DNA from: Halobacterium sp. R2-5
Lineage (GTDB): Archaea; Halobacteriota; Halobacteria; Halobacteriales; Halobacteriaceae
Length of the DNA stretch: 64,000 nucleotides
Direction of reading: 5' to 3'
Assembly: GCF_011734195.1 (NCBI RefSeq)
Contig: NZ_JAANTH010000001.1
Coordinates: 868,001 to 932,000, forward strand
Below are positions 36,876-46,391 of the stretch, in pieces (position 1 is the stretch's first letter; the number at the start of each line of letters is the position of its first letter). The translations under genes were made by a program, and so were the position numbers. The notes beneath the pieces were generated by a model that saw only the letters and a program-made list of their open reading frames with translations, ran no database searches and was not told where the DNA came from.

Positions 36876-36912
36876 TTTTTCAGCCGCGAGCCGTCGGCTC
36901 GCGGCTGAAAAA
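36876..36912. terminator. Perfect 17-base inverted repeat after the 7S RNA
   Basis: TTTTTCAGCCGCGAGCC, loop GTC, then its exact complement ending in AAAAA. Symmetric, so it can act as a hairpin terminator on both strands: for the 7S RNA from the left and for the RecA-like operon from the right. Confidence 0.65.
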
Positions 36913-44777: not shown

Positions 44778-44837
44778 ACCCACTGGTTCGCCGTCCGCAC
44801 TGAAAAAAGCCGCTTTCCACTGCGGCCCTCGCCGCTG

Positions 44838-45653
44838 CTAGAACGCGCCGAGACTCGACTGGCGGTCCCGGCTGCTCGCGCCCTCGGTGACGTCGTACCC
44901 GACGAGGTCGCGCATGTCCACGGCGTACGTCGTCCCGCCGCGCTCCAGGGCGAGCACCCGCCCCTTCGTCCCGAGTACCGTCCCAGTGAGCATCGTCTCC
45001 GCGACGGGTCGGGCGTCGAAGGGGACGCCGTAGTCGAAGTCGAAGCGCTCGATGGGGTCGTACTCCGCGACGAGCGCGTCCCACGCCGCCTCGTCGACGT
45101 CCTCGGCGAACCCTCGGATCTTCGTCGGGACGCGCACGCGGTCGGGAACCGTCTCGGCGATGCCGTACTCGATCTGGCGAGCGCGCTTGCCGTTCTCGAC
45201 GGTCCGGATGTGGGCCGCGCGGTCCGCGCCCTGCTCGCGCAGCCGCGTGTCCAGCCGCCACGAGCGCGTCACGCCCACCTTGAACGTGTCCGGTGCGAAC
45301 GCCGCGAGGTAGACGGCGTGCTCCTCGTGGCACGACTCCAGGGGCATCGCGCAGTTCCCGATACAGCGCGCGCACGGCCACGTCGACGTGTGCTCGTCGC
45401 AGTACGGCGCGTCCTCGCGCCCGCACGCCTCGTGGACGTCCTCAGAACACTTCGTGTTCTGATGGGCTGGGGAAGACGACTCGGTCGTCTTCCCAACGCC
45501 GTCTCTCGTGGCGCCCGCGCAGTGGCGCTCGCCGAGCGTGTACGCCAGCGACTCCCCGGCGACCAGCGGCACGCGCTCGACTTCGCCCCCGCTGGCGACG
45601 CGGAGCGCGGCAGCCCCCTCGCCGGGCGTCGTCTCGTACCCCACTACCTGCAC
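44838..45653 (-). CDS. DUF2797 protein
   Basis: 271 residues from a GTG at 45653; a CTTTATTC box about 27 bases upstream supports it over a longer start. Core: VQVVGYETTPGEGAAAL, a cysteine-rich part with HCAG, CDEHTSTWPCARCIGNC (zinc-knuckle-like), then EEHAVYLAAFAPDTFKVGVTRSWRLDTRLREQGAD. Family function unknown. An unusual segment of about 20 residues (GVGKTTESSSPAHQNTKCSED) falls between the HCAG and the cysteine cluster; its DNA is two adjacent perfect hairpins. Confidence 0.78.
   Translation of the reverse strand: MQVVGYETTPGEGAAALRVASGGEVERVPLVAGESLAYTLGERHCAGATRDGVGKTTESSSPAHQNTKCSEDVHEACGREDAPYCDEHTSTWPCARCIGNCAMPLESCHEEHAVYLAAFAPDTFKVGVTRSWRLDTRLREQGADRAAHIRTVENGKRARQIEYGIAETVPDRVRVPTKIRGFAEDVDEAAWDALVAEYDPIERFDFDYGVPFDARPVAETMLTGTVLGTKGRVLALERGGTTYAVDMRDLVGYDVTEGASSRDRQSSLGAF
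45442..45494. repeat. Two adjacent perfect hairpins inside the DUF2797 gene
   Basis: First hairpin: TCAGAACAC, loop TTC, GTGTTCTGA (45442-45462). Second: GGGAAGACGA, loop CTCGG, TCGTCTTCCC (45470-45494). Both stems are perfect and lie in frame in an open coding sequence. They look like a small inserted element. Confidence 0.6.
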
Positions 45654-45776
45654 GGCCGCCGGTACGCCGGGTCCGAATAAAGCCGTGGCGCTTGCCGTTC
45701 GCCCGATAACGCTCGTGCCACCGGGTGACGCCGCCATCCGCGAGCGCTTATCCCGGCGGCCCGTCTAGGTGCGGCC

Positions 45777-46391
45777 ATGGCAGACGAATCCATCCCGGTC
45801 TCCGCGGAGGCGCCCGACAGCCCCTTCCGGACCACGGGCACCGACCACATCACCATCTGGGGGAGCAACGCCGAGGACACCATCGCGTTCTACCGCGACC
45901 TGCTCGGCATGCCGCTCGTCCTCCGGCAGCCGAACCTCGACGACCCCTCCCAGACGCACCTGTTCTTCGACACCGGCGACGGCCGCATCCTCACCGTCTT
46001 CGTCAGCGACGACCGCGCGTCGAACCGCGGCCGCATCCGCACGCAGACAGGCAGCGTCCACCACCTCTCATTCTCCATCGCGGCGGAGGACTTCGAGGAC
46101 GTGATGCAGGCCCTCGACGAAGCCGGGCACGGCTACAACGTCTTCGACCGCGGCATCTTCTTCTCGCTGTACACCCAGGACAACAACGGCCTCATCATCG
46201 AGCTCTCTGCCGACAAGTACGACATCCCGGACGACCGCCGCGGCGAGGTGCTCGCGACCGCCCAGCGCCTCCGCGAGGAGGACGGCGCGGACTTCGCCGA
46301 GGACCGCCACATGAAGCAGGCCCTCGAAGAGCTCGGCCTCGACGCCGAGCCCGCGGACCTCCCGGACGCCTCCACCGGCGTCGGCTACTGA
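45777..46391 (+). CDS. VOC-fold metalloenzyme (glyoxalase/dioxygenase-like)
   Basis: 204 residues with one VOC module pair (about 20-140): the metal-binding His in TGTDHITIWGSN, His in VHHLSFSIA, and Glu in NGLIIELSADK. A helical C-terminal tail (about 150-204) is an add-on. It may be a ring-cleaving dioxygenase or a lyase. It stands 25 bases before the MhqO-like dioxygenase gene, so it is part of that operon. Confidence 0.78.
   Translation: MADESIPVSAEAPDSPFRTTGTDHITIWGSNAEDTIAFYRDLLGMPLVLRQPNLDDPSQTHLFFDTGDGRILTVFVSDDRASNRGRIRTQTGSVHHLSFSIAAEDFEDVMQALDEAGHGYNVFDRGIFFSLYTQDNNGLIIELSADKYDIPDDRRGEVLATAQRLREEDGADFAEDRHMKQALEELGLDAEPADLPDASTGVGY

Follow-up and report, generated by a model that had tools for sequence, protein, structure and literature searches.

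The window analysed here, a stretch of 64,000 nucleotides from Halobacterium sp. R2-5, contains a DUF2797 gene whose 299-residue product matches PF10977 with an E value of 9.1e-23, confirming that two neighbouring hairpins noted in a sequence-only reading of this DNA do lie inside a gene of that family (Table 1). That reading had placed the hairpins at 45442–45494 and 7 bases apart; they are real, and the 9-bp first stem and the spacing hold, but the second stem is 11 bp rather than 10, and the true unit is larger, a 60-bp insertion spanning 45439–45498. Its minus-strand reading adds 20 codons, VGKTTESSSPAHQNTKCSED, to the DUF2797 protein, and its CGTC tag is composed of the flanking target CG plus the element's first two bases. 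A single-sequence AlphaFold2 prediction of the insert had a mean pLDDT of 39 and was set aside.

Table 1 Features of the two-hairpin element and its host gene in the window
Feature	Position	Strand	Basis or detail
DUF2797 gene (PF10977) with insertion	44838–45737	−	Start codon from the list of open reading frames
CG of left flank, from target	45437–45438	+	CG there in 126/135 parsed copies
Mobile element, 60 bp, TCCTCAG...CCCAACG	45439–45498	+	Empty site, protein alignment, covariance-model match
Hairpin 1, TCAGAACAC-TTC-GTGTTCTGA	45442–45462	+	9-bp perfect arms, loop TTC
Linker TGGGCTG, conserved	45463–45469	+	Conserved columns of alignment A1
Hairpin 2, GGGAAGACGAC-TCG-GTCGTCTTCCC	45470–45494	+	11-bp perfect arms, loop TCG
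Right end AACG	45495–45498	+	AACG end in 113/135 parsed copies

Perfect hairpins with arms of at least 9 and loops of 3–7 bases were listed 16 times in the window, compared to an average of 5.5 across 30 dinucleotide shuffles, several of the 16 listings being nested at one site; two such hairpins within 20 nt of each other occurred in none of the 30 shuffles. A covariance model of the family (R1, described below) matches the element at 45433–45503 with 88.1 bits, and this is the single strong copy within the window. Separately, the strongest hairpin of the window, at 36876–36912, has 17-bp perfect arms and a 3-base loop (TTTTTCAGCCGCGAGCC-GTC-GGCTCGCGGCTGAAAAA) and looks like a bidirectional terminator.

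The segment had been suspected of disturbing the usual spacing between HCAG and the cysteine cluster of DUF2797. PF10977 is present in 35 of 40 relatives of the genome under study (G000), with 36 matches, 30 of them with loci, and these 30 homologues were aligned by tblastn. The 20 residues are missing from 26 of them, in agreement with that suspicion, and are present in just two, G000 and G002; the remaining two are a divergent paralogue (G001a) and a fragment (G006). Universal conservation of the segment at the protein level, which the earlier reading had named as the outcome that would speak against an insertion, therefore fails. We infer that G002 is probably Halobacterium hubeiense, since a match on its fourth contig lies at nearly the coordinates of one on plasmid pSTJ003 of that species. 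In a DNA alignment of eight species the site is empty in G010, where GCCTCGTGGACG runs directly into CCCTCGTC, and filled in G002, where 60 bp stand between the same two flanks. The empty site of DUF2797 is thus exact at the DNA level (GGACG followed by CCCTCGTC, that is, GGACG^CCC) and reveals a clean gain of 60 bp, as expected of the small, frame-preserving palindromic element that had been proposed.

A second copy in G000 interrupts a methyltransferase-family gene, giving PEFD-VRKTAQPSSVARQNAERSGD-GVDALPE. The gene was found in all 13 genomes of a genus-wide search, and the site is empty in the eight readable congeners (G001, G002, G003, G004, G008, G010, G011 and G012); G005 and G007 each give two adjacent partial matches that skip the same query residues, so that the empty state is defined by eight readable congeners plus these two split matches, with G006 and G009 unread. 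Because this copy is missing from the readable congeners, the element has moved recently. In addition, an IS605-type tnpB of G010 occurs in two states, empty at L042 and filled by a 60-bp in-frame copy at L056, and the filled form of tnpB was seen at two places with identical flanks (L124 and L125). Insertions were therefore seen against two exact empty sites and, further, in one tnpB with and without the copy. Together, these results confirm that the DUF2797 segment is indeed a two-hairpin element that inserted in frame and has been mobile recently.

A DNA search of 59 relatives, G000 included, matched 22 genomes at E ≤ 0.01. Alignment A1 combines the copy in the window with 21 of 34 loci, all found by sequence alone; the rest were set aside, four as duplicates and nine as partial, divergent or doubtful. 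In A1, 97.9% of 374 cells are paired compared to 88.5% in shuffles. Compensatory change on both sides affects 29 cells, compared to 4.7 in shuffles, and occurs in 10 of 17 pairs; none of 500 shuffles reached the three covariation values of A1. Sliding the partner by 1–3 columns lowered pairing to 30–44%. The stem sequences drift, with pairing kept.

The covariance model R1, built from A1, matches 126 of 146 genomes of the host's order, in 51 of 56 genera (E ≤ 0.001), a draw in which the A1 source genomes match by construction. Of 120 genomes drawn from the phylum, 17 match R1, all in the host's order; among the 103 without a match, 20 were listed, two of these in the host's order. An exact 33-base pattern was found in 31 stretches of an 84,980-species collection, all 31 with haloarchaeal titles, and a search of plasmid DNA returned 33 records, with a haloarchaeal name in every case among the matches listed. 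A phage or virus carrier was sought by searching a phage collection, with no match at E 0.1, and viral contigs, with no match to the exact pattern. The further genomic copies that the sequence-only reading had suggested looking for do exist: R1 has 16 matches at E ≤ 0.001 in G000, the weakest doubtful, and 48 in G012, although such counts overstate copy number because weak and overlapping matches are included.

The family follows the grammar CG^TCCTCAG-hairpin 1-TGGGCTG-hairpin 2-AACG^, with two different hairpins joined by a conserved linker. We parsed 135 distinct copies from the loci, a non-random sample for which the parser demanded both hairpins and a TC start, so that the parsed copies are no evidence for those features; it also accepted mirrored readings of palindromic arrays (L054 and L073). 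The boundary counts of Table 1 come from this set. Most copies are 51–63 bp long, with lengths of 56 (38 copies), 55 (29), 60 (25), 54 (15), 58 (12), 51 (5) and 57 bp (4), and seven others. The left tag of the first 22 copies, found by sequence, is CGTCC in 21 and CATCC in one. The target, taken over 108 distinct sites, has the form G (78) N CG^Y (101) C (82). No target duplication longer than CG was seen, a 2-bp duplication of CG being indistinguishable from none.

To classify copies by their surroundings we used a codon model trained on the 29 open reading frames of this window only, scoring 150 bp on each side. Among the 135 copies, 20 were in frame, two in frame with a stop (both from L073) and two frameshifting, while 19 had one coding side only, one was opposite and 91 were noncoding. 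The 20 in-frame copies all read antisense to the plus strand of the element and share a single phase, and their length is divisible by 3 in 19 of 20 cases, compared to 18 of 91 noncoding copies (Fisher p = 2.5e-10); the exception, L225 at 67 nt, was probably parsed too long. As the DUF2797 pair accounts for two of the 20 copies, the independent in-frame sites number at most 19. Some of the one-side and opposite copies, which we left uncounted, have flanks whose best score falls on the plus strand, as at L006, L220 and L289; read from the sequence, the 60-bp copy of L006 gives GFKGGD-VRKTTKSSSAAHQNAKRSED-DIEAFL, in the usual orientation.

Ten of the 20 in-frame proteins were scanned, and all ten match Pfam families; the carriers include a ParA/MinD-type ATPase, an NAD kinase, an M20 peptidase, a metallo-beta-lactamase with rhodanese, a lipoyl ligase, a class I W/Y tRNA synthetase, an NAD-dependent DNA ligase, an NAD(P)H-hydrate dehydratase and a DUF84 protein. 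The inserts lie in frame in unrelated conserved genes, in the manner of Rickettsia palindromic elements, and the homologues read for the DUF2797 and methyltransferase sites are mostly empty. Two annotated plasmid genes also carry the element in the usual orientation, the fibrillarin-like methyltransferase of Natrinema thermotolerans (TDVQQTESAAANQNSESSEDGEW) and the P-type ATPase of Halomicrobium urmianum (LRKTESSGARQNAARSEDVD). Among further named stretches, L321 and L323 have coding sequence on both flanks in the usual orientation, with L309 and L324 likewise but less clear. The copy at L225 (G005:C1:1801163–1801227) lies within an open reading frame that we take to be an intein in a DNA polymerase-type protein; if so, this looks like mobile DNA inside mobile DNA.

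The target explains part of this regularity. In the genes of the window, 61.7% of CG dinucleotides have their C at codon position 3, and a target profile built from 88 non-gene sites, which refines simple models of CG phase, predicts for genes 40% of insertions at the observed boundary in the observed orientation and 38% in the opposite one. Given these near-equal values, the target accounts for the phase and not for the orientation. The peptides of the two orientations differ strongly: the reading used has a mean net charge of 0.05 and 8% hydrophobic residues, whereas the opposite reading at the same boundary has a net charge of +4.15 and 44% hydrophobic residues. Haloarchaeal proteins are acidic, and a filter against the basic, hydrophobic opposite peptide is therefore the simplest cause of the orientation. 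The plus strand at offset 1 also gives a hydrophilic and mostly stop-free reading (net charge +0.6, 14% hydrophobic), in a phase that the target makes rarer, and was seen in none of the 20 copies. Two copies, L174 (58 bp) and L265 (55 bp), apparently break the frame of a gene. Both nevertheless have the usual orientation, so an insertion bias instead of selection could cause it, two frame-breaking copies being too few to settle the matter.

The reading we prefer, with a probability of about 75%, is that of a non-autonomous, REP-dimer-like element that targets GNCG^YC, is usually codon-aligned within genes and is selected there for its hydrophilic orientation, with the HUH step the least certain part. 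On this reading the family would be a non-autonomous mobile element with the target GNCG^YC, and insertion would tend to add whole codons because this target mostly coincides with a codon boundary (NNC^GNN) in haloarchaeal genes. Selection would then retain the orientation giving a hydrophilic, near-neutral peptide (of RKTTxSSSAAHQNxKRSED type) and remove the opposite orientation with its basic and hydrophobic peptide. One hairpin may serve as the left end and the other as the right, in the fashion of an inverted REP pair, and, least certain of all, the element might move as single-stranded DNA, aided in trans by a hairpin-reading HUH enzyme resembling the TnpA of IS200/IS605.

Several observations make an HUH/Y1 mover plausible. 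Three copies (L145, L153 and L162) sit inside host hairpins, with CCCACGGCTTTAGCCG to the left of the element and TGGGAGGA to the right, which may represent an IS605 right end, and another lies in a hairpin adjoining a Y1 gene (L055). A tnpB relative was found within 1 kb of 15 of the 135 copies, including L090, which is the same site as L162, and a relative of either tnpA or tnpB within 1 kb of 17. The end hairpins, the CG at the left and right ends, the lack of any longer duplication and the copies in host hairpins fit single-strand transposition of the IS200/IS605 kind. To this extent the comparison with IS200/IS605-type ends made in the sequence-only reading is upheld, since hairpins lie near both ends, nothing beyond CG is duplicated and some copies lie within or beside IS605-type elements; it falls short with regard to the transposase, as no Y1 gene bounded by such ends was found and G000 has no PF01797 match. 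Specifically, PF01797 (Y1) had no match in G000 or in ten more of the 30 genomes searched, and among 30 Y1 loci none was recognised as bounded by the element's ends by the hairpin-1 pattern, which occurred in five of them at one listed place each. When TnpB zinc motifs were sought around the 34 loci, the one hit was an unrelated protein.

Movement may instead depend on something other than a Y1 enzyme, such as a different HUH protein or template switching between hairpins during replication, which we consider possible, if the less probable course. G000 has no PF01797 match, yet it holds the methyltransferase copy that is missing from readable relatives, and the number of Y1 genes does not correlate with copy number (rho 0.22, p = 0.27, n = 27 genomes). 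The stems change yet stay perfectly paired, complementary loops (TTC and GAA) occur in one genome, and bacterial CGTC-tagged REPs, as described in the parts of PMC3733652 drawn on here, are likewise without a dedicated transposase. On the other hand, a transposase may have been lost from G000 or lie outside the assembly. A more specific picture, selfish archaeal DNA fitted to proteins, in which GNCG^YC is a codon boundary, one orientation yields a bland, halophile-compatible peptide and the mover is not Y1, is in our judgement tentative at best.

We think it unlikely that the element is a PATE, that is, the end hairpins of one IS200/IS605 element fused by deletion of the core and moved by the TnpA of that same element. 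Such an origin has on its side the hairpins near both ends, the lack of duplication beyond CG, the 17 copies near tnpA or tnpB relatives and the Haloquadratum PATEs that, according to passages of PMC3119063, shrink to 52 bp by core deletion. However, no parent insertion sequence with such ends was seen, the hairpin-1 pattern in Y1 loci being confined to five of 30 and to one place in each. The copies at L056 do flank tnpA, but one lies inside tnpB, and the sister element L042 has neither. More generally, copies sit as foreign inserts in the genes or end hairpins of IS605-type elements, and hairpins 1 and 2 of a single copy differ in sequence.

Far less probable is an RNA element, such as a terminator or riboregulator, that acts in the transcript: stable paired stems with covariation are what it has to offer, whereas Rfam gave no match up to E 1 in 44800–45800, gene-borne copies lie within coding regions on the antisense side, and the copies have a fixed insertion boundary. 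Finally, a segment conserved for its value to the protein and palindromic in DNA by chance is translated in frame within a conserved gene, as is observed, but we give it next to no chance and regard it as ruled out by the alignment in which 26 of 30 homologues lack it, by the exact empty site in DNA and by the same DNA in unrelated genes and outside genes.

Compared by description, the nearest kinds to the preferred REP-dimer-like element are the CGTC-tagged REPs, with the Rickettsia palindromic elements, and SMR-A of Haloquadratum. REPs have been sorted into GTAG- and CGTC-tagged groups (Di Nocera et al. 2013, PMC3733652). According to portions of that paper, CGTC REPs occur in five bacterial phyla, include the Rickettsia palindromic elements RPE-4 and RPE-6, most commonly form HH dimers (tags outwards) with partners unlike in some families, are transposase-free and in some gene copies add 20–30 residues; the word archaea appears in the paper only in its reference list. 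The likeness, as far as those descriptions go, comprises the CGTC tag, short perfect stems, paired units, insertion in genes and no recognised transposase. CGTC REPs are described there as bacterial, with stems of 8–9 bp, loops of 4–5 bases and a CCA tail, whereas the present element is archaeal, with a first stem of 9 bp (in A1), loops mostly of 3 bases, the linker TGGGCTG and the right end AACG. Read backwards, this right end is CGTT, one letter off CGTC, and hairpin 2 differs in sequence. REPINs with their RAYT (TnpA-REP) enzymes also combine two hairpins in one small non-autonomous unit, but their tag is GTAG and that of the present element is CGTC.

SMR-A of Haloquadratum walsbyi is described in passages of Dyall-Smith et al. 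(2011, PMC3119063) as an element of about 110 bp without target duplication, which targets IS605 palindromes and whose mobilisation is enigmatic. By this description it resembles the present element in being haloarchaeal and transposase-free, in lacking a duplication and in lying inside near-terminal palindromes of IS605-type elements; it differs in its length of about 110 bp, compared to 51–63 bp here, and in its prominent terminal inverted repeats, and those passages report no in-frame insertions in genes. PATEs and IS200/IS605 ends, as partly described in the same source, share near-terminal palindromes and precise insertion without duplication, and PATEs have core-deleted forms of 52 bp, but no parent insertion sequence with the element's ends was found here. 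In the sections used of Quentin et al. (2018, PMC6006769), only IS200 subclass 1.1 of the Y1 transposases is reported in Archaea, and a 2024 review of MITEs (PMC10969869), in the part consulted, presents the Rickettsia elements as an unusually frequent in-frame case. Among the papers listed by searches of an open-access library, we recognised none that describes in-frame palindromic elements in archaea.

Rickettsia, a genus that is hard to grow, has been the main source of known in-frame palindromic elements. A haloarchaeal family with sharp rules of target, length, orientation and phase offers a tractable system in free-living, culturable hosts. Two questions could be addressed there: by what means transposase-free palindromes of the CGTC type are mobilised, and how conserved enzymes survive the addition of peptide encoded by mobile DNA. 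There is a warning for annotation too, since a stretch resembling KTTxSSSAAHQNxKRSED in a haloarchaeal protein can be mobile DNA.

Several variants of the family were observed. In G132 (L095–L110 and L113, near position 1000), a 55-bp variant, TCATCAG...CTGATTGGCTCACGAGAGC..., is present in at least 17 copies and is part of a larger repeat, as its flanks are similar on both sides; its hairpin loops occur in complementary forms (TTC/GAA and TCC/GGA), which suggests loop inversion. Similarly, the 56-bp copies at L138, L139, L111, L236, L241 and L242 have GGTGTGGCCCCG and CCATCGG as common flanks across different genomes and hence ride within another repeat. Longer relatives, in G000 (G000:C1:616398–616528; L121) and in G012 (L276–L278, L281 and L282), have other hairpins between hairpin 1 and the right part, and hairpin elements seem to nest within one another. 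At L018, L025 and L031, outside clear genes, short hairpins of several kinds, with three-base loops that resemble one another, stand in rows.
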